Shown here: piece after piece, positions 7,987 to 38,305 of the stretch
Numbering within the stretch: the first letter of the stretch is position 1
Layout of the letters: each line of letters opens with the position of its first letter
Assembly (NCBI GenBank): GCA_016795505.1
Contig: JAEUHH010000043.1
Location: 1-55,774 of the forward strand
DNA: 55,774 nucleotides
Direction: 5' to 3'
From: Verrucomicrobiales bacterium
Lineage (GTDB): Bacteria; Verrucomicrobiota; Verrucomicrobiia; Verrucomicrobiales; DEV007
Notes under the pieces: model-generated
Databases searched by the model: none
The model's input: the letters and a program-made list of their open reading frames with translations, nothing else
What the model was told of the DNA's origin: nothing
Made by a program: the position numbers and the translations under genes

Positions 7987-9146
7987 TCCACCGCCTCCCC
8001 GGCGAGGAACCGCCTCGTGTAACCGGATGTGAGCGAAAGATGCGGCTTCTCGAAGATCTGGAGATGATTTCCCGTCACCCGATGCACCCCAAACTCTCCC
8101 GTGAGGATGTTTTCCCAACCCAACTGATCGCTGCACTCGAACTTGTCCGTGTTCTCCTCCGTGGCCAGGATCAGCGTGCGCCCGCCATAGACACCGGGAC
8201 GGCAGTCGCGGATCAGGCCTTCATTCTTCCGCCGGATGGCAATGCGCCGCCGATGTGCCGGATCGAGGAGGCTCGGATGCAGCCACAGCCTTTCCGCCTG
8301 GTGCCGCAACATCCACCCGGCCAGAGAACCCATCCGGGCAGCCAACTTCCAAGCGGCCCGAATCAGCCCCTGATCGCTGCTTTGCCGCCAGCAATGGACG
8401 AGGCGGCCGACCACCGGACGGATGCGCGTCTCAGCAGGATTGAACATATCATAGAGGATCAAACCCTCTACTTTGTCACCGGACTCGACCGCCAGGCGGG
8501 AGATCTCGTGCGCAATCAGAGCTCCGAAGGAATAGCCGGCAAGCAGGTAGGGACCATGGGGCAACTCGGCTTTGATCCGGGCCAGGTAGCGCCTCGCGAT
8601 CGCCGTGATGTCCTCATTCGCAGGACCATCGGTGGCAGAGGCCTCGATCGCATAGTAGTCGCGGTCGTCAGGCAATTGCTCCACGAGCTGTCGGTAGAAC
8701 ATCACCCCGCCATCGATCGCATGGATGCAGATCAGCGGCGCCTTCGAGCTGCGCGGCGATTCGCGCAGCGGGATCAGGCCGACTGAGAGCGATTCCAAGT
8801 CCGCCTCGGAACGATCGGCCGCCCGGTCGATCAACGCTGCAAGACGGCGGGGCGTCGGGCAGTGAATCAGCGCGGTTGGGGAGAAGTCCACGTCATAGAT
8901 GTCCTCCCGGACGCGCTTCAACAGCTCCAGAGCCAGCAGCGAATCGCCACCGAGCGAGAAGTAGTCGTCATCGGGTCCGATGGTGGCATCGGCAAACTCC
9001 GTTCGCCACAGATCCAAAACCTGTCGCAGGGTGTCAGACTGGGCGGGAGGAGCGGAGGTCAGATTACGAACGGCCATGTTTCCGGTCATTTTTGGGGATG
9101 TCGATGGACGGGGACGACTGGACGTGGAGGGGGGATGGAGAGTCAT
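7983..9146 (-). CDS. Free-standing carrier protein-thioesterase didomain
   Basis: The product is 387 residues from the first ATG; starts at 9089 and 9077 are also possible, and none has a Shine-Dalgarno sequence. Residues about 38-110 are a PCP/ACP domain with DDDYFSLGGDSLLA (phosphopantetheine Ser69). Residues about 135-375 are a type I thioesterase: GYSFG nucleophile (Ser206), LYDMFNP (Asp233) and TGNHLQIF for the His. There is no adenylation, condensation or ketosynthase domain. The thioesterase is clearly paralogous to the one ending the megasynthase at 1-6110 (shared GG-x-x-FY, Y-x-A-x-EA, DKFE, GWE and GNH positions). It could accept an intermediate in trans for release. It lies downstream of a glycosyltransferase and is translationally coupled to the GH99-like gene, so its true partner is uncertain. 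Confidence 0.88.
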   Translation of the reverse strand: MTLHPPSTSSRPRPSTSPKMTGNMAVRNLTSAPPAQSDTLRQVLDLWRTEFADATIGPDDDYFSLGGDSLLALELLKRVREDIYDVDFSPTALIHCPTPRRLAALIDRAADRSEADLESLSVGLIPLRESPRSSKAPLICIHAIDGGVMFYRQLVEQLPDDRDYYAIEASATDGPANEDITAIARRYLARIKAELPHGPYLLAGYSFGALIAHEISRLAVESGDKVEGLILYDMFNPAETRIRPVVGRLVHCWRQSSDQGLIRAAWKLAARMGSLAGWMLRHQAERLWLHPSLLDPAHRRRIAIRRKNEGLIRDCRPGVYGGRTLILATEENTDKFECSDQLGWENILTGEFGVHRVTGNHLQIFEKPHLSLTSGYTRRFLAGEAVE

Positions 9147-11952: not shown

Positions 11953-13962
11953 ATGACCCCAGCTGTTTTACCTCCCCGCACCGAACTCGCCGCTCCATCA
12001 CCCCAGCCCGCTCCTGTCGAATCCCGGCAGGGCTGGGATTTGATCGAGGTGAGCCCCGCAGTCGATTTCCAGGACCTCTGGAGCATCATCAAACGCCGTC
12101 GGATGCTCCTGATGATCATCCCCGCCGTGTGCGCCGTCATTGCGGTCGTCTTCGTGAAGCTCGCGATGACGCCGCAGTACAAGAGCAATGCGCTGATCTT
12201 CATCGACCCGATGTTCGATCAGGTGCTCCAGGTCGAGGCCGTCGGTCAGGTGATGTCCGATTTGGATTCCCTGAACTCCCTGGAAAAGGCCATCGTGTCC
12301 GATTCCATGATCCTGCGGGTCGTCGACCGACTGGAACTGAGAAAGGACCTGGGTTTCCTGCCGAAATCGCTTCACAAATACGTGCTCCGCGGCGAGGAAG
12401 TCTCCAGCTCCCGGTTGCTCGCCGAGATCCGGAAAAAGCGCTTCTCGGCGAGTCTCATCCGCCCCACCCGCCTGCTGGAACTGACCGTGTTCGATCCGGA
12501 TCCGATCCGCGCCCAAAAGATCGCGCAGACTTTCGTGGATGAGTTCGAGAGCTTCCTGGGTGAGCAGAAAAGCCGTGAGGCCGGCCGGGCGACCGAGGAC
12601 CTGCGCCGCCAGGCGGCGGATGCCTACACCCGCGCCCTCGAGGCGGAAAAGATGCTGGAGTCTTTCCGCATGAAGAATCCCGGTCTGACGGTCGAGCAGG
12701 ATCACCAGCTCTTCGCGGAGAGGCTTAGTAAGATCGGCGACGAGTTGAACCTCGTATCCGGCAAGGTGCTCGATCTGCGGAGCAAGGTCGAGACCCTCGC
12801 AGGCGTGGATCCCGAGAAGGACCCGATCAAAGTCATCCAAGTGGGCAATTTCACCGGCATCATACACGTCTCGGAGCTGCTCAACCAGCGGCTCGGTGCC
12901 CACGCTGCGCTCGCGGCTACGGCCGAGCAATATGGGGAAAACCACCCCCGCCTCCGGGAGGCCCGCAGCCGCGTGGCCGAGATCGAAGCCCAACTCCGCC
13001 GCCTCGCCGCCGACCTGAAGGCCACTGTCGACGCCGACTACGCCGCCTCCGTGTCGAATGAGAAAATGCTCACCCAGCGCGTGGCCGAGCTGCAGGGGCA
13101 GTTAACCGCCCAGAAGAGCGCCAGTTCGGAGTTCCGGGCCATCCAGCAGAAGGTGGAAACCGAATGGCAGGTGCATGAGTCGCTGCAGAATCGCATCGGC
13201 GCCACTTCCATCACCTCGGAGAAGGCCACCGAGATCACCGTGCTCATGTCCGCGCCGATCGTCGCCCACAAGCCCTCCAAGCCCAGCGGGAGCATCGCGC
13301 TCGCGTCGGGCGGCTTCGCCGGCCTGCTGATCTGCTTCGGTCTGGTGGCCTTCGATCTCTTCCGGGGCGGCCCGTTCGTCAGCCGCTACCAGTTGGAAAG
13401 CAATCTGCGCCTCCCGGTGGTCGCCCAGGTCGATTTCTCGATCCGGGGCATGGATGAGGAAGAGGTCGTCGAGGAAATGTCTCGTGCCCTGATTTCGCCG
13501 CAGTGCCGCCATGCCCGGTTCATCCACGTCACCTCGGTCTGGAGCCATCCCGAGGGTATCCGGGTGGCCGGCTGCCTGGCGGCGGCTTCGGCCCGCTGCG
13601 GCAGTTCCACCCTGCTCATCTCCGTGGCCCCGGGAGGCAATCCCAATACGCTGGTCAACCTCGTCCCGCAGCCGTCCCATATCGAGAATCTCCACACCCT
13701 GCGTCTGCCCGCCTGCTTCCTGATCTCTCCGACGAATCCCTGGCAACTCCTCGGCCCCCATCGCCAGCACTTCGGCCGCATCATCATCGAGTCCACCTCC
13801 CTGAGCCAGGCCAGCCAGATTCCCGGCGTGATCGCCTCCTTCGCCGATGCCAATCTCCTCGTCGTCCCCGAGGGCCGTGGCACCAAGCGGGAGGTCGAGG
13901 ATGCCGCTGTCCAACTGGGTGGGAACAGCCGGGGCCCCGTCGCCCTCGTGCTGCAAGCCTGA
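11953..13962 (+). CDS. Wzz/GNVR polysaccharide co-polymerase with degenerate tyrosine-kinase domain
   Basis: The 669-residue protein would control chain length and export of the polymer. After a Pro-rich N-terminus comes a Wzz domain with DLWSIIKRRR and a membrane segment at about 51-70. A long periplasmic region (about 190-430) looks coiled-coil, with the GNVR-type stretch before the second membrane segment at about 446-470. The cytoplasmic C-terminus (about 480-669) resembles the CpsD/BY-kinase fold, with HVTSVWSHPEGIRVAG at the P-loop position. The Walker A Gly-Lys-Ser/Thr is missing, and no Tyr-rich tail is seen, so kinase activity is unlikely. The flippase follows 61 bp downstream. Confidence 0.9.
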   Translation: MTPAVLPPRTELAAPSPQPAPVESRQGWDLIEVSPAVDFQDLWSIIKRRRMLLMIIPAVCAVIAVVFVKLAMTPQYKSNALIFIDPMFDQVLQVEAVGQVMSDLDSLNSLEKAIVSDSMILRVVDRLELRKDLGFLPKSLHKYVLRGEEVSSSRLLAEIRKKRFSASLIRPTRLLELTVFDPDPIRAQKIAQTFVDEFESFLGEQKSREAGRATEDLRRQAADAYTRALEAEKMLESFRMKNPGLTVEQDHQLFAERLSKIGDELNLVSGKVLDLRSKVETLAGVDPEKDPIKVIQVGNFTGIIHVSELLNQRLGAHAALAATAEQYGENHPRLREARSRVAEIEAQLRRLAADLKATVDADYAASVSNEKMLTQRVAELQGQLTAQKSASSEFRAIQQKVETEWQVHESLQNRIGATSITSEKATEITVLMSAPIVAHKPSKPSGSIALASGGFAGLLICFGLVAFDLFRGGPFVSRYQLESNLRLPVVAQVDFSIRGMDEEEVVEEMSRALISPQCRHARFIHVTSVWSHPEGIRVAGCLAAASARCGSSTLLISVAPGGNPNTLVNLVPQPSHIENLHTLRLPACFLISPTNPWQLLGPHRQHFGRIIIESTSLSQASQIPGVIASFADANLLVVPEGRGTKREVEDAAVQLGGNSRGPVALVLQA

Positions 13963-32465: not shown

Positions 32466-33896
32466 ATGGAAGACGAATTGTTCACGCCCGAGCCCGACGG
32501 CGATTCCGATGAGACAGGGTCTGATCTCCGATCCAACCCTGTCTCATCGGAAACCGCCCCGTCCGGACCGGAAAATCGCAACATCCCGCTCGCCGCGCGG
32601 ATGCGCCCGCGCTGTCTGGACGAGTATGTCGGGCAGAAACACATCCTCGGCGAGGGCCGGCTGCTGCGCCGTGCGGTGGAGGCCGACCGCTTCACCTCCC
32701 TGATCTTTTACGGCCCACCCGGCGTGGGCAAGACCAGCCTCGCCGAACTCATCGCCCGGCGCACCGAGAGCCGATTCGTGAACCTGAGTGGCGTCGAAAG
32801 CAACGTCGCCGAGATCCGCAACGCCGTCGAGGCGGCCCGCTCCATTCTGCGCACCCAGAAGCGCGTCACCACCCTGTTCGTCGACGAGATCCACCGATTC
32901 AACAAAGCCCAGCAGGACGTGCTGCTGCCGCACATCGAGCGCGGCACGGTCCGCTTCATCGGCGCCACGACGCACAACCCCTATTTTTACATCAACAGCC
33001 CGCTCGTCTCGCGCAGCCAGGTTTTCCAGCTCGAGCCACTGGCGGAAAGCGACCTCGCCGAGCTGCTCCAGGCCGCCATTCACGATCCCGGGCGCGGCTT
33101 TGGCAAACTGGCCCTGACCGTCACCGACGAGGCCGCCGCCCATCTGGTGCGGATGTGCGATGGCGACGCGCGCAAGTTGCTGACCAGCTTCGAGCTGGCC
33201 GTGCTGACCACCGAGCCGGACCCGGACACCGGCGAGATCACCATCGACCTCGCCGTGGCCGAGGACTCCATCCAGCGCAAGACCGTCGTCTACGATGCCG
33301 ATGGCGATGCCCACTACGACACCATCAGCGCCTTCATCAAGTCGATCCGCGGCTCCGATCCCGATGCCGCGCTCTACTGGCTGGCGAAAATGCTGTACGC
33401 CGGCGAGGACATCCGCTTCATCGCCCGCCGCATCGTCATCGCCGCCAGCGAGGACATCGGCATGGCCGATTCGAATGCCCTGCGCGTCGCCGTCGCGGCC
33501 CAGCAGGCGGTGGAATTTATCGGCATGCCCGAGGCGCGGATCCCGCTCGCCCACGCCACCGTCTACCTGGCGACCGCGCCGAAGAGCAACCGCGCCTACG
33601 CCGGCATCGACGCCGCACTGAAAGATGTGGCCGAGGGCCGCACCCTCGCTGTGCCGGCCCATTTGCGAACGAAAACCCGTAAGCGACTCGCCCGCGAAGC
33701 CGGTGGCGCGACCGAGTCCGAGACCGAATACCGCTACAGCCACGACTACGAAGGCGCCTACGTGCCCCAGGCCTACCTCCCCGAAGGTCGGCGCTACTAC
33801 GAGCCGGGGGAGCAGGGCATGGAAAAGCGGGTGAAGGAGCGGCTCGATTTCTGGCGGGAGCAGTTTTTGCGGGAGAGCGGTCAGAATGAGACCTGA
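32466..33896 (+). CDS. rarA: Replication-associated recombination protein A (MgsA/RarA) with palindrome-encoded insert
   Basis: This 476-residue AAA+ ATPase acts at stalled forks. IPLAARMRPRCLDEYVGQKHILG leads into Walker A (FYGPPGVGKTSL), Walker B (LFVDEIHRFN), sensor 1 (FIGATTHNP) and a conserved C-terminus ending YLPEGRRYYEP...LDFWREQF. The MEDELF start is plausible for the family, but about 40 residues precede the IPLAARMRP block, compared with about 16 in E. coli RarA. Residues about 13-29 (DSDETGSDLRSNPVSSE) are encoded by a 49-bp palindrome at 32504-32552 with perfect 17-bp arms, an in-frame insertion in the non-conserved N-terminus. The last 114 bp of conserved coding sequence are duplicated at 37427-37540. 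Confidence 0.95.
   Translation: MEDELFTPEPDGDSDETGSDLRSNPVSSETAPSGPENRNIPLAARMRPRCLDEYVGQKHILGEGRLLRRAVEADRFTSLIFYGPPGVGKTSLAELIARRTESRFVNLSGVESNVAEIRNAVEAARSILRTQKRVTTLFVDEIHRFNKAQQDVLLPHIERGTVRFIGATTHNPYFYINSPLVSRSQVFQLEPLAESDLAELLQAAIHDPGRGFGKLALTVTDEAAAHLVRMCDGDARKLLTSFELAVLTTEPDPDTGEITIDLAVAEDSIQRKTVVYDADGDAHYDTISAFIKSIRGSDPDAALYWLAKMLYAGEDIRFIARRIVIAASEDIGMADSNALRVAVAAQQAVEFIGMPEARIPLAHATVYLATAPKSNRAYAGIDAALKDVAEGRTLAVPAHLRTKTRKRLAREAGGATESETEYRYSHDYEGAYVPQAYLPEGRRYYEPGEQGMEKRVKERLDFWREQFLRESGQNET
32504..32552. repeat. 49-bp palindromic element, copy C (inside rarA)
   Basis: Perfect inverted arms TTCCGATGAGACAGGGT (32504-32520) and ACCCTGTCTCATCGGAA (32536-32552) flank a 15-nt centre. 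It starts 38 nt after the rarA ATG and is read in frame. Confidence 0.95.
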
Positions 33897-33972
33897 ATGA
33901 AACGGCCCAATGGCCCACGACCTCCCATCGAAAGCGGAGTAAAAAAACTTCAACCTAATCAAAAAAAAGTCA

Positions 33973-34008
33973 TTGACTAAATTTACGCCCCTGTGTTTTC
34001 CTACCGCC
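33973..34008 (+). promoter_or_regulatory. Possible promoter upstream of the repeat protein
   Basis: A TTGACT hexamer at 33973-33978 lies in an A/T-rich stretch 30 bp upstream of the ATG at 34009. Seventeen bases further on the sequence is TTTTCC, a poor -10 match. It is a weak candidate promoter supported mainly by the base-composition shift and the -35-like hexamer. Confidence 0.3.
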
Positions 34009-35002
34009 ATGAGTTCTCCAATCAGCTTCTCCGCTTCTCCGCTTCTCCGCTTCTCCGCTGATCGCATTCGCCTTGGTCAGTAACTTTGCGGTAGCTCAGG
34101 GGCCGACCTACACTTCCGGCCAGACCTACACCCCTGGTCAGACCTACTCCCCTGGCCAGACCTACTCCCCTGGCCAGACCTACTCCCCTGGCCAGACATA
34201 CAACCCCGGCCAGACCTACAACCCCGGCCAGACCTACAACCCCGGCCAGACCTACAACCCTGGACAAACATACTCGTCGGGGCCCACCTACAATTCAAGC
34301 CCCACCTACAGCTCAGGGCCTACATACGATCCGAACAGCAATCAGCCTCCGGAAGCCTACGACGATTATATTACAGTTGAAGATGGTGTTACGTTTACAT
34401 CCACCACATCCCTTCTTGCAAACGACACTGATCCAGATGGCCAAGCGCTCACAGTTGAGTCGGGCACATTCACTACTAGCGCCAATGGTAGCTTCACTAT
34501 AAGTACTGACGGTAGCTACAGCTATTCACCTCCAACGGATCAATACGTCGGAAATGTAGATACGGTAGTCTATTCTGTCTCTGATGGCTCCGAGAGTGAT
34601 ACGGCCACCCTCAATATTGACATTTTGAGAGAAGAAAGAGTGGTGAAGGCATATTGGGAAATACAGGCAAGCGTAAAACTCAGACCGAATTCTACCAAAA
34701 CTATGGCAGAGATAATGACCGCAGTCCGAGCATACGTGAAAGATAGCTGCAAGGCAGGTGCAAATCCCGATGCAAAGCCCGTGGAAGGGTTGCCTCCAGC
34801 GCTCGCAGCCGAGTTAACCGCTGATTCAACCCTGAATAGTGTAAAAAAGAGCGACCCAGAGAGAGCCAAAGTGTGGAAAAGACGCGATAAACCGAAGGGA
34901 ACGATTCAAGACAATCATCCGATCGAAAGCGGAGACATACTAGAAAATGGTGTGTGGGCAGTTCAATTCGATTGCAATGTGGAATGGGACTGGACTGAAT
35001 AA
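34009..35002 (+). CDS. Secreted hexapeptide-repeat/Ig-like protein with slippage-prone start (candidate phase-variable)
   Basis: As sequenced, the ATG at 34009 opens a frame that ends at TAA 34081-34083; the main frame is readable only from a TTG at 34073 (309 residues). Between them lie four perfect GCTTCTCC units (34025-34056). One extra unit (or two fewer) would join the ATG to the main frame and create a leader with the hydrophobic run PLIAFALVSNFAVA before AQG, a good signal peptide. From the TTG, residues 10-87 are 13 hexapeptides of GQTYxP type; about 88-185 are a cadherin/VCBS-like Ig domain (ITVEDG, LLANDTDPDG, DTVVYSVSDG); about 186-309 are unknown, with two Cys. The Ig-like pattern suggests a surface adhesin. 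The coding sequence is AT-richer than the flanks. Confidence 0.72.
34025..34059 (+). repeat. Octanucleotide tandem repeat GCTTCTCC x4 plus 3 bp
   Basis: Four perfect copies of GCTTCTCC (34025-34056) are followed by GCT, located 14 bp after an ATG and inside the predicted signal-peptide region of the next gene. Because 8 is not a multiple of 3, each gain or loss changes the reading frame. Confidence 0.92.
34100..34333 (+). repeat. 18-bp minisatellite encoding 13 G-Q-T-Y-x-P-type hexapeptides
   Basis: Thirteen consecutive 18-bp units encode one GPTYTS, one GQTYTP, three GQTYSP, four GQTYNP and then four degenerate units (GQTYSS, GPTYNS, SPTYSS, GPTYDP). The central seven are nearly identical at DNA level, which suggests recent expansion. 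The unit length keeps the frame, so copy-number change would alter stalk length without disrupting the protein. Confidence 0.92.
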
Positions 35003-35003
35003 C

Positions 35004-35008
35004 GAGGT
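35004..35008 (+). promoter_or_regulatory. Shine-Dalgarno GAGGT for the gene at 35013
   Basis: GAGGT lies just after the stop of the repeat protein and 4 bp before the ATG at 35013. It fixes that start over an upstream in-frame ATG at 34947 that would lie inside the previous gene. Most genes in this window have no such site. Confidence 0.6.
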
Positions 35009-35012
35009 GTCT

Positions 35013-35921
35013 ATGAAAGGTCCAATAGGGGTTCTTGCCGCCATATTAATTCTGGGGTTCGTGGTGCTGGCCTTTCTTAGGGGCGGCCCTCGCCCGGAGC
35101 CGGTGGACGATTCTGCCCAATCCCCAAATTTGGCCAACGGATCGAATCTGCCTGCCAGTTCCGGGCTTGGAACCGGGCCAAAATCGCCAAAGAAACCAGA
35201 AGAAGATCTCTCCCATTTGTTGGGTAGCAATCACTTCCTCCGGTGGTTGAGATTCGGGCCTCTTGATGAAAGGCTCGAGTACTTTCGCAGGTTGCCCGTC
35301 GGTTCCAAAAATGACTATGGGGGCGCCGCCCGCCAGTTGATAAAGGATCTCTATCCGGTGTCTCCCGAAGATGCCATTCAGTTGGTCGTTGAAAAAAAGG
35401 GCCTCGGCGACTTTTGGGCGGCATCAATGCAACTCGGGGAGTTTCTGGGGAAGGCGGGAAATTTGGACAAGCTCAATGAGCTGTCTACCACTGAGGGCGG
35501 CAAGGTAATCACTTCTGGCTACTTGGAAGGCTTCGCTACCGTCAATCCGGAGGAAGCCCTTGCCTTGAGTGCAGTATTTTCTACGACCGGGGTTGATCCT
35601 AGTGGAGCTATCATCTCGGCAGCGGCTAGCGCGGGAAAGTATCAGGAGGCTATTGCTGCGATACGGAAATTCAATCTCCCCGCAAAAGATCTCAGTATCC
35701 AGTCAGTATACACGACATGGGTTAAGTTTGCGCCCGTTGACGCTGCAAACCATTTGATCCGGCAGGCAGCCACTCCTTCCAGGGAGGTATTTTTGGGGCA
35801 TGTGCTGTCCGAGTGGGAATCCTGGGATCCGGATGGATATAACAATTGGATGGCATCGATGAAAGACAGTCCGAACGAAGATTTGATCAAAGAAGCGCTC
35901 AGAGATGTGGGCCAGAATTGA
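35013..35921 (+). CDS. Membrane-anchored helical-repeat protein of unknown function
   Basis: The product is 302 residues. An N-terminal membrane segment (about residues 4-22, GVLAAILILGFVVLAFL) is followed by a Pro/Ser-rich linker to about 65. The rest is helical and solenoid-like, with recurring patterns such as P-x-DA-x-x-LV, G-x-L-x-KAGN and DP-x-G-x-x-NW, resembling TPR/HEAT-like proteins common in Verrucomicrobia. No catalytic motif is seen. It lies 10 bp after the secreted repeat protein and probably shares its transcript, so it could help export or anchor that protein, but this is inference. The coding sequence is AT-richer than the core genes. Confidence 0.72.
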   Translation: MKGPIGVLAAILILGFVVLAFLRGGPRPEPVDDSAQSPNLANGSNLPASSGLGTGPKSPKKPEEDLSHLLGSNHFLRWLRFGPLDERLEYFRRLPVGSKNDYGGAARQLIKDLYPVSPEDAIQLVVEKKGLGDFWAASMQLGEFLGKAGNLDKLNELSTTEGGKVITSGYLEGFATVNPEEALALSAVFSTTGVDPSGAIISAAASAGKYQEAIAAIRKFNLPAKDLSIQSVYTTWVKFAPVDAANHLIRQAATPSREVFLGHVLSEWESWDPDGYNNWMASMKDSPNEDLIKEALRDVGQN

Positions 35922-35954
35922 TGTCCTGATGGATTTGTGGCATTCTAGTTTGGG

Positions 35955-36539
35955 ATGGATATTCAATATAATTCTGCTAAACAACGTGGTTCGGTTTCCG
36001 GAGTTATTTTCCTTTTCTTGTTTACGCTAACTTGGCAGATGCCGGTAGTTTTTCATAAGAAGGTGGAAGGTTCTCTACCTCTGCACATCAGGCACTACAG
36101 CGACCTCGCCCGCCTGTTTCCCCGGAGAGTGGACTCGTGGAGTTTCTTTCAGATTCAGGCTCGATTCACCGGCGGCGGCGGCAGGCGGGAGGATGTTCAG
36201 TTGGCGGATTACTCCCAGATGGAGAACTATGGCTACCTGACGCGGCTGGATCGCATCCTGGATGAGGCTGGCACGCCTGATCGCGGTCCCCTGGCCAGGC
36301 GTGAACTGGCGGCCTATCTGGCTGCCAGACACGCGACCCTGTTCCCCACGGCTCCAGCGATGCGGGAGGTCCGCTACCTGCGCCTCTCCGTGCCGGTCGG
36401 GCATCCGATCAGCGCCCACCCCGCCGGCCGCTGGGTCAGTCCGGCCGCACAATCGGTCCCGCCGGAATGGGTGCGCCAGATTCAGATCGTGACCGACCGG
36501 GAATGGACCAAGCCCCTCCAGGAGGTCGTAATACCATGA
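35955..36539 (+). CDS. SdpA/DUF5819-like membrane-anchored partner of the HTTM protein (tentative)
   Basis: The 194-residue protein has one N-terminal membrane segment (about residues 14-33) and a soluble part starting LHIRHYSDLARLFPRRVDSWSFFQIQ. A short membrane-anchored protein with a 'LFP..W.FF' stretch placed directly before an HTTM gene is the arrangement seen for SdpA-SdpB and for DUF5819-HTTM pairs. The similarity is in architecture and context, not firm homology. Its stop overlaps the HTTM start (ATGA at 36536), implying tight co-expression. Confidence 0.55.
   Translation: MDIQYNSAKQRGSVSGVIFLFLFTLTWQMPVVFHKKVEGSLPLHIRHYSDLARLFPRRVDSWSFFQIQARFTGGGGRREDVQLADYSQMENYGYLTRLDRILDEAGTPDRGPLARRELAAYLAARHATLFPTAPAMREVRYLRLSVPVGHPISAHPAGRWVSPAAQSVPPEWVRQIQIVTDREWTKPLQEVVIP
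36520..36524 (+). promoter_or_regulatory. Shine-Dalgarno GGAGG for the HTTM gene
   Basis: GGAGG lies 11 bp before the ATG at 36536. It supports that start over the longer in-frame ATG at 36467. Confidence 0.55.
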
Positions 36540-37423
36540 GCGCTGCGGATATTCGCCGACGATTCGGCTCGTTCTGGACGGGCGAGGGTTCGCTGGCCCG
36601 CTTCCGGCTGTTTGAGATCTGTTTCTCCATCGCCTTTCTGGTTTACATGGGTCGCAACCTGCTGGCCGCAGGCGAGTGGCTGACCGACTCCGGGTTTCAC
36701 CTTTCCGCGGCCGCCAGCCGGAGTGGGGGGACGACGCCGCTGCCGACACTGCCCGATTGGGCGGTGCCGCTCTTTGCCATGGCGATCCTTGGATCGGTGG
36801 GTGGTGTGATCCTGGCGCCGCGGCTGCGGCGGGTATGGTTCGGCCTGCTGGCAGTACTGGCCTGGTACGCCGAGGGAGTCGATCCGGCATCTGCTTTTGC
36901 GTTGAACAGGATCTTTGTGGCGGGGTTTTTCTTTATCGCACTCAGCCCCGGCTACGATCCGGCCTCGTATCGGGGATCCGTGGCGGGTCTTCGGGCGTTT
37001 CAGTTGTTTCTGGTGACTTTGTATTTGGTGACCGGGCTGCCAAAGGCACTGGAGGGCGACTGGCTGGTACACACCGATGTGGTGTGGACTCACGCCCAGG
37101 GCCACTACCGCACCCCGCTCGCCGCCTGGATGCTGCGTCATCTGCCCCTCTGGGGATGGGCGACGATCCAATACTCGGTGCTGATCTTCGAGTTGGGCGC
37201 CCCGATCTGGCTCACGTGGCGACGCACCCGCCCCGTCGCGATCGTCTTCGGACTTTCCTTTCATCTGGGGATTGCACTCCTGATGAAGGCGGTGTGGGTA
37301 TTCAGCCTGCAAATGGTGGCATTCTACGTTCTATTCCTGCCGGATGATTGGGCGCGGGAGTGGATTCGCCGTTTCCGGGAGACGCGGGCGCTCTGGTCGA
37401 TGTCCCGGCCAACCCTGACATGA
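36536..37423 (+). CDS. HTTM-domain (SdpB-like/gamma-carboxylase-like) membrane protein
   Basis: The 295-residue protein has about six or seven hydrophobic segments. The pattern fits HTTM proteins, which include SdpB and the membrane part of vitamin K-dependent gamma-carboxylase: an amphipathic start (SLARFRLFEICFSIAFLVYMGRN), LFLVTLYLVTGLPKALEGDWL in the middle, then IFELGAPIWLTWRRTRP and FGLSFHLGIALLM. The short length has no soluble C-terminal domain. In Bacillus, SdpA and SdpB together mature the SdpC toxin; here no SdpC-like gene is evident, so the client is unknown. The stop lies 3 bp before the rarA-derived repeat. Confidence 0.68.
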   Translation: MSAADIRRRFGSFWTGEGSLARFRLFEICFSIAFLVYMGRNLLAAGEWLTDSGFHLSAAASRSGGTTPLPTLPDWAVPLFAMAILGSVGGVILAPRLRRVWFGLLAVLAWYAEGVDPASAFALNRIFVAGFFFIALSPGYDPASYRGSVAGLRAFQLFLVTLYLVTGLPKALEGDWLVHTDVVWTHAQGHYRTPLAAWMLRHLPLWGWATIQYSVLIFELGAPIWLTWRRTRPVAIVFGLSFHLGIALLMKAVWVFSLQMVAFYVLFLPDDWAREWIRRFRETRALWSMSRPTLT

Positions 37424-37426
37424 CGT

Positions 37427-37540
37427 CGCCTACGTGCCCCAGGCCTACCTGCCCGAAGGCCGGCGCTATTACGAGCCCTGCGAGCAGGGCATGGAAAAGC
37501 GGGTTAAAGAGCGGCTCGATTTCTGGCGGGAGCAGTTTTT
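37427..37540 (+). pseudogene. Duplicated 3' end of rarA
   Basis: This 114-bp stretch matches 33755-33868 with 8 mismatches, most at third codon positions. It encodes YVPQAYLPEGRRYYEP through LDFWREQF and stays open for 16 further codons to a TAG. It lacks the ATPase part and any start codon. The mostly silent differences point to a diverged rarA homologue rather than a fresh copy. It marks the right edge of the accessory segment. Confidence 0.85.
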
Positions 37541-37649
37541 GGGGGGGGCCCGGAATCAGGGGGCATTCGGAGAGAGTCCGTAGGAGATCGGAGCTCGAGA
37601 TGACTGCTCGAACAGTCTGGTTGGGGCCTAAATTTTGTAAAAAATAAAT

Positions 37650-37738: not shown

Positions 37739-38305
37739 ATGAAATTTGCCCCGTATCGACCCTTCCAGCCCGCCAATCTCATCTCCTTCCCGGCCGAGCT
37801 TCCCACTCCCTCCTCACCGTCCACATCCATGAATGCCTCCACGATGATCCCCACCCTCGAACAGTTCCAACTGCACGCGATCGACCAGATCTGCCTGTCG
37901 AAGGGACATTCGCAGCTCACTTTCAGCATCGAGCTGTCGCACGACCACATCACCCAACGGGTGCTGCTGGCACTGCTCGATGAGAACCGGGAGAAGGGCG
38001 TCTGCGTGGCGATCTACCCCGCCACGGGCGAGGTCTGCGACCTGACGAACGGAGGTGGAGTGATCGGCTATCTGTCCTTGTCGCCGCTGCTGCCCGGCCA
38101 GTCGATTCACTGCGAGTTGCTGGTTTACAAGTTCGGACCGAACTGCGTCTGCACGGCGCGGATCTGCGGCGAGACCTTCCTCTATCCGGCTTTCGTGATG
38201 CACGGCAACCCCCGCCTGACGGCTCTGGTCGGCTACGACTCGGGCGCGGGGATCCAGTGGGACGAGGAAATGCTCCATGTGACCGAGACGCAGGCGGTGG
38301 CCTGA
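37739..38305 (+). CDS. Protein of unknown function
   Basis: The product is 188 residues from the ATG at 37739; an internal ATG at 37826 would give 159 residues and removes a Pro/Ser-rich leader. The body is mixed alpha/beta with four Cys (EKGVCVAIYPATGEVCD and FGPNCVCTARICG contribute five positions in total). There is no signal peptide, membrane segment or known motif. It has its own upstream repeats and a strong terminator after it, so it is probably a single-gene, regulated unit. I do not recognise the family. Confidence 0.65.
   Translation: MKFAPYRPFQPANLISFPAELPTPSSPSTSMNASTMIPTLEQFQLHAIDQICLSKGHSQLTFSIELSHDHITQRVLLALLDENREKGVCVAIYPATGEVCDLTNGGGVIGYLSLSPLLPGQSIHCELLVYKFGPNCVCTARICGETFLYPAFVMHGNPRLTALVGYDSGAGIQWDEEMLHVTETQAVA

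Follow-up and report, generated by a model that had tools for sequence, protein, structure and literature searches.

A candidate opa-like slippage switch at an octanucleotide array preceding a signal-peptide-like core in a Verrucomicrobiales bacterium

Can an octanucleotide repeat turn the synthesis of an exported protein on and off in a member of the phylum Verrucomicrobiota? The question is raised by a locus (34009-35002) in a window of 55,774 nucleotides, the whole stretch of Verrucomicrobiales DNA that was analyzed, where a repeat tract stands directly 3' of the putative start codon of a gene for a probably exported protein. The ATG lies at 34009-34011 on the forward strand, and an ATG is also found at the matching place in two related genes of G064, a genome from another genus of the family. 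Thirteen bases separate the ATG from a forward-strand tandem array of GCTTCTCC (34025-34059), which has 4.375 perfect copies (period 8, 4.4 copies, and 100% matches by Tandem Repeats Finder). The ATG frame runs for 24 codons and ends at a TAA (34081-34083). The main frame opens at 34013, after a TGA (34010-34012) overlapping the ATG, and extends over 329 codons without an in-frame stop to the TAA at 35000-35002. From the ATG to an internal TTG at 34073 there are 64 bases, which puts the ATG one base out of the body frame. Direct reading confirmed what the first-pass annotation had described, namely, four octanucleotide units between the ATG and a main frame displaced by one base, and the hydrophobic run PLIAFALVSNFAVA that it had noted is present in the main frame.

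The effect of the unit number on the reading frame was computed with a script for 0 to 9 units. Only with 2, 5, or 8 units is the ATG joined to the signal-peptide-like stretch and the body, as had been claimed earlier (a fifth unit, or the loss of two, joins them), and at the other numbers the ATG frame stops after 6 to 32 codons. The four units of the assembly leave the ATG and the body unjoined, which is an OFF state. The locus has the layout of an opa-type contingency locus: the tandem array is perfect with a unit (8) that is not a multiple of three, it is stop-free in all forward frames and lies between the putative start ATG 34009 and the body, and a change in unit number joins the two, in silico. 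The first-pass annotation was right about the layout and the frame arithmetic.

The GCTTCTCC array far exceeds chance. When the window was searched with a 24-base array pattern allowing up to 3 mismatches, matches were found solely at the array, and no such match occurred in 100 shuffles. A run with a period of 7, 8, 10, or 11 reaches 27 here, whereas the maximum in 300 simulated windows was 15. The two-unit GCTTCTCC pattern occurs at a single locus of its own genome, and (GCTTCTCC)3 in 1 of 387 phylum genomes, at this locus only; the unit does not belong to a dispersed family of extragenic tandem repeats. This bears on the accuracy of the assembly, in which the unit number might be wrong and the true gene in frame and constant. 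The genome is in 120 contigs, and three fetched contigs end in perfect heptamer arrays of 17 to 19 copies (L158 1-122, L164 1-118, and L169 15354-15486), at which the assembly seems to break. The GCTTCTCC pattern, however, is present once in the genome, and ordinary short reads are long enough to contain a perfect array of 35 bp, so that we consider an assembly error highly improbable.

After the array, the main frame encodes a signal-peptide-like core, LIAFALVSNFAVAQ (34058-34099, forward strand), recognized by a crude rule of 7 residues with a mean Kyte-Doolittle value of at least 2.7 followed by a small-x-small site. In a sample of the own genome, the rule recognized 107 of 1,056 N termini of long open reading frames versus 99 of 13,946 short open segments. 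Since short open segments rarely have such a stretch, its presence directly after the array is unlikely to be due to chance, and a start upstream of the array is likely. The first-pass annotation had proposed that the sequenced state is OFF or uses the internal TTG. The first part stands, with four units out of frame, but the second lost ground: the TTG (34073-34075, forward strand) is the earliest ATG, GTG, or TTG in the main frame, and a protein beginning there (MVSNFAVAQGP) retains no signal-peptide-like stretch by the same rule. After the array, codons for LIAFALVSNFAVA follow in a frame other than that of ATG 34009. The five- and eight-unit forms carry an arginine before the core. The two-unit form has no lysine or arginine there, as is the case for 17 of 122 signal-peptide-like N termini, while the other 105 have one.

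Signals for initiation were of little help. Shine-Dalgarno-like motifs precede the first ATGs of 55 of 788 genes in the own-genome sample versus 11% at random places, which makes the motif useless as a start codon test here. A TTGAC on the forward strand (33973-33977), 36 nt upstream of the ATG, is a weak candidate for a -35 element. TTGAC or TTGCC is found 36, 37, and 40 nt upstream of the ATG in the three genes that share the N-terminal module (here, G064 C244, and G064 C702), but a strict promoter scan of 33800-34300 found none, and the position of TTGAC upstream of 162 genes had no clear peak.

G064 emerged from a search of the N-terminal part against 288 genomes of the order, in which 23 genomes matched, the own genome included. 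Many of the matches appeared to be of low complexity (L238 and L242 are among those inspected). The match in G064 covers a threonine- and tyrosine-rich (TY-rich) linker at 67%. By motif rule, the linker was found in L247 (G064) alone among L247 to L252. Of 386 genomes from the order, two, the own genome and G064, contain the linker motif PTYxxGPTY. A scan of viral contigs for the PTYD motif gave 0 hits. In the G064 gene C244, an ATG is followed by 13 units of 7 to 8 bp with a common core (ten GCTTCCC, two GCTTCCCC, and one GCTCCCC) and then by TILAMIVFGFLVNRAFADPTYDSGPTYDSG up to the contig end, which falls within the linker. GCTTCCCC differs from GCTTCTCC by one base, and (GCTTCCC)3 occurs in 1 of 74 family genomes, G064, and there at the C244 gene only. 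As assembled, the ATG and the signal-peptide core of C244 are in different frames. The second G064 gene, C702, has the same module without an array, with an ATG and, in frame with it, MEPLSTPRLLAPVFGLATALFGLTIIFCAYGEDPTYDTGPTYDS. It continues for 1,663 codons, among them TSP3 repeats, and is still open at the contig end.

The signal-peptide-like core of the window aligns with C244. When the C244 stretch was searched back against the 74 family genomes, 34058-34201 matched at 51% with an E value of 1.9e-5. A linker-only match in another genome, G085, reached 2.3e-5, so that the E value alone is no proof of signal-peptide homology. The array is part of neither search alignment by which G064 was reached (residues 73 to 105, and 7 to 53 in the back-search). 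A gene with a similar core and linker thus has its own array after the ATG at the corresponding place, which suggests that the array here lies within the signal-peptide-coding region. The comparison argues for ATG 34009 as the start of the module, with the array grown inside the signal-peptide n-region.

The same comparison offers another start. C244 has an internal ATG directly after its array, overlapping the TGA stop of the upstream frame, and the codon at that position in the window is CTG 34058. The array may then be a leader: translation would start after it and give a short signal peptide at any unit number, and the frame from ATG 34009 would be a short one upstream, to which the restart might be coupled. 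Arrays also stand just upstream of start codons in other genes, e.g., in L211, L232, and L225. CTG, however, is a rare start codon, the resulting MIAFALVSNFAVA has no charged n-region, and in C702, which has no array, the frame runs on from the earlier ATG. We regard a start after the array as quite unlikely in the window. In L225 (genome G018), a (GGAGACAA)14.75 array (13104-13221) is immediately upstream of an ATG, and its units contain GGAG, so that copy number might affect initiation there.

The protein body behind the core begins with the linker (34100-34333, forward strand), which consists of thirteen 18-bp units encoding 6 residues each (GQTYxP and variants), as delimited by Tandem Repeats Finder and unit comparison. 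Being an in-frame 18-bp tandem array, it may vary in length without a frame break. Of 45 differences among the 13 units, 24 affect the third base of a codon (P = 0.004). Counted by codon, 14 differences are synonymous and 17 are not, in copies that are not independent of each other. The linker is followed by a bacterial Ig/cadherin-like domain (approximately 34340-34624, forward strand; residues 90 to 182 of the 309-amino-acid reading), for which Pfam gave Big_9 (E value of 2e-15), Cadherin_5 (8e-14), and Cadherin_4 (1e-13). At a Pfam E value cutoff of 0.1, families other than Ig/cadherin-like ones had no match. An NCBIfam tandem-95 match was below the cutoff of that family. The third-position excess among the linker units and the intact Ig-like domain point to past coding constraint on the body frame, which appears to have been translated in the past.

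Relatives of the protein were found for parts of it. Matches at an E value of 0.001 were obtained for 20 of 57 relatives, the own genome included, and center on the Ig/cadherin region; of 13 plasmid records with matches, the 8 listed span the Ig/cadherin part alone. No relative of the whole protein was found in the genome contig collection, viral contigs, or phages, and there was no match in PHROGs. For the C-terminal part (34640-35002, forward strand, with the stop at 35000-35002), a search of 384 genomes of the class gave its own match and two weak ones in or across unrelated reading frames. One of the weak matches is in frame within a 407-amino-acid frame, which resembles an acetyltransferase, and the other is opposite a long frame. 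The structure of 34334-35002, predicted alone, had a mean pLDDT of 49.7 and was set aside. No anchor was seen in the protein, and its prediction as a surface protein draws on the one bacterial Ig/cadherin-like domain and the signal-peptide-like stretch. With Ig/cadherin-like families as its only Pfam matches, the product falls outside the Opa protein family; the locus may work like opa, yet its product is not an Opa.

Four reading frames lie between rarA and a gene at 37739, and the gene with the array comes first among them. In the three congeners compared, rarA and the gene at 37739 are neighbors, and the four-frame stretch (33897-37426, forward strand) is missing. The GC content of the gene with the array is 0.52 (0.48 behind the linker) versus 0.66 for rarA. 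A direct duplication of the 3' end of rarA (119 bp; 33755-33873 and 37427-37545, 110 of 119 positions identical) bounds the inserted stretch, with the second copy on its right. With respect to the age of the two copies, the relatives are split 2:5, 5:2, and 5:3.

We counted short tandem arrays (units of 7, 8, 10, or 11 bp with at least 3 copies) relative to crude gene calls, in which about 90% of the bases were called coding. In 1.55 Mb of the own genome there are 24 arrays, 17 of them between genes, with the array at 34025 counted among these 17, and in 0.4 Mb of four family genomes there are 13, 11 of them between genes. The GCTTCTCC array may thus be a neutral repeat that arose by spacer-type slippage, a recent low-GC gene having been frameshifted by accident in the sequenced lineage with no selected switch. 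The intergenic position of most arrays and the absence of the stretch from the congeners, together with the GC difference, fit such an origin. It fails, however, to predict an array of different construction at the same place in a similar gene of another genus; GCTTCTCC is not among the dispersed units, and the main frame is free of in-frame stops over its whole length. Calculated post hoc, the number of arrays expected in a given 100 bp is about 0.002 at the own-genome density and 0.011 at the spacer density. We give the neutral repeat a modest chance.

A script for the same layout was run on the 1.55 Mb of the own genome, the 0.4 Mb of the four family genomes, and 0.88 Mb from 80 named loci. 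It returned further arrays after an ATG, and with homopolymers left out and translations judged by eye, none of them ran into a signal-peptide-like stretch. Arrays of 7- to 8-mers are ordinary in this family; one after a signal-peptide ATG, in two genera, is not. A second octamer array, CTCTGCGT in L171, was considered as a like case and rejected because it is located in a spacer repeat. In this spacer element (8410-8800), a segment of about 180 bp that contains CTCTGCGT repeats and CGCAGAGGCG stretches is repeated in tandem almost without change. A named Roseibacillus locus (L089) has a T8 tract (2782-2789) inside an in-frame signal-peptide-like start, MKNRLLPLLFFTLFISNVFGADQG, another possible slippage site.

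A candidate Opa-like slippage switch is the best single explanation of the locus, and we place it just on the probable side. Translation would begin at ATG 34009, and the array would be a slippage-prone tract within the n-region of the signal peptide. Slipped-strand mispairing in the living population would add or remove 8-bp units and thereby shift the frame. Where the unit number n equals 2 modulo 3 (2, 5, or 8), the ATG, the core, the TY-rich linker, and the Ig/cadherin-like domain would form one protein, presumably exported (ON); the remaining numbers from 0 to 9, including the assembled 4, would be OFF. Cells might benefit from switching. Support for the switch comes from the frame table, the signal-peptide-like stretch behind the array, the coding constraint on the body frame, the rarity of the array, the gene in the other genus that has a separate array at the matching place, and the in-frame C702 with no array. 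Against it count the shortness of the array (four units), the OFF state of both arrays as assembled (here and in C244), the abundance of 7- to 8-mer arrays in the genome and family, mostly in spacers, the two-unit form without lysine or arginine before the core, and the presence of mutS and mutL in the genome. In C244, the overlap of the internal ATG with the upstream stop would make a restart possible at any array length. Taken as a whole, the interpretation in the first-pass annotation is partly supported, and the observation on which it was built is confirmed.

The locus is assigned to the opa type by its layout and not by proven function. Switching of the Neisseria opa genes depends on CTCTT repeats that lie in the region for the leader peptide (PMC3960869, PMC5354566). 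In both systems, the units are not multiples of three and follow the start codon inside the signal-peptide-coding region, and the gain or loss of units would connect the start with the body or separate them. Unlike opa, which has a pentamer and for which switching has been seen, the locus here has an octamer in four units, an unrelated protein, and another phylum as host, and the likeness is one of layout (PMC3960869, PMC5354566). In Haemophilus influenzae, hepta- and octanucleotide repeats are candidate phase variation tracts, some within reading frames (PMC2651432). The units of 7 to 8 bp are alike, but the octamers described there are upstream of hmw and pdxS, outside a signal peptide (PMC2651432). 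Dispersed heptamer repeats have been described in spacers of Xanthomonas and Nostoc (PMC4692102). The 7-bp arrays of this family are likewise plentiful between genes; one unit is spread genome-wide there, however, whereas GCTTCTCC is at one locus here (PMC4692102).

The first-pass annotation had also held that such a locus would be notable in this phylum. That claim is weakened by Akkermansia muciniphila Amuc_1413, for which variation of a G-tract is reported, mucin binding being lost upon a frameshift (PMC13055324). Slippage phase variation has therefore already been reported in Verrucomicrobiota. The phylum is the same, as would be the slippage frameshift, and the gene there is a cell envelope gene; Amuc_1413, however, has a G homopolymer in a 735-codon exopolysaccharide gene, with variation and phenotype both observed (PMC13055324). 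No case of phase variation by an octamer or in a signal peptide from Verrucomicrobiota was found among the listed results of the literature search, which covered open-licence papers only.

The shared N-terminal part may be a transferable module for switchable export, composed of a short promoter, an ATG, a hypermutable C/T-rich tract of 7- to 8-bp units, the signal-peptide core, and the TY-rich linker. It would have unrelated passengers (the Ig-like protein here, the TSP3-repeat protein in C702, and an unknown one in C244) in two genera of the family, and phase variation would travel with the module. We give this idea a small chance. If the unit number does not vary in nature, the locus would be an example of spacer-type arrays disrupting newly acquired genes. 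If it varies, an octanucleotide would underlie an opa-style on/off switch in Verrucomicrobiota, and the locus and its G064 counterpart would form a testable pair with the same place and different unit lengths. Such variation would support a repeated origin of signal-peptide slippage switches wherever slippage arrays are common.
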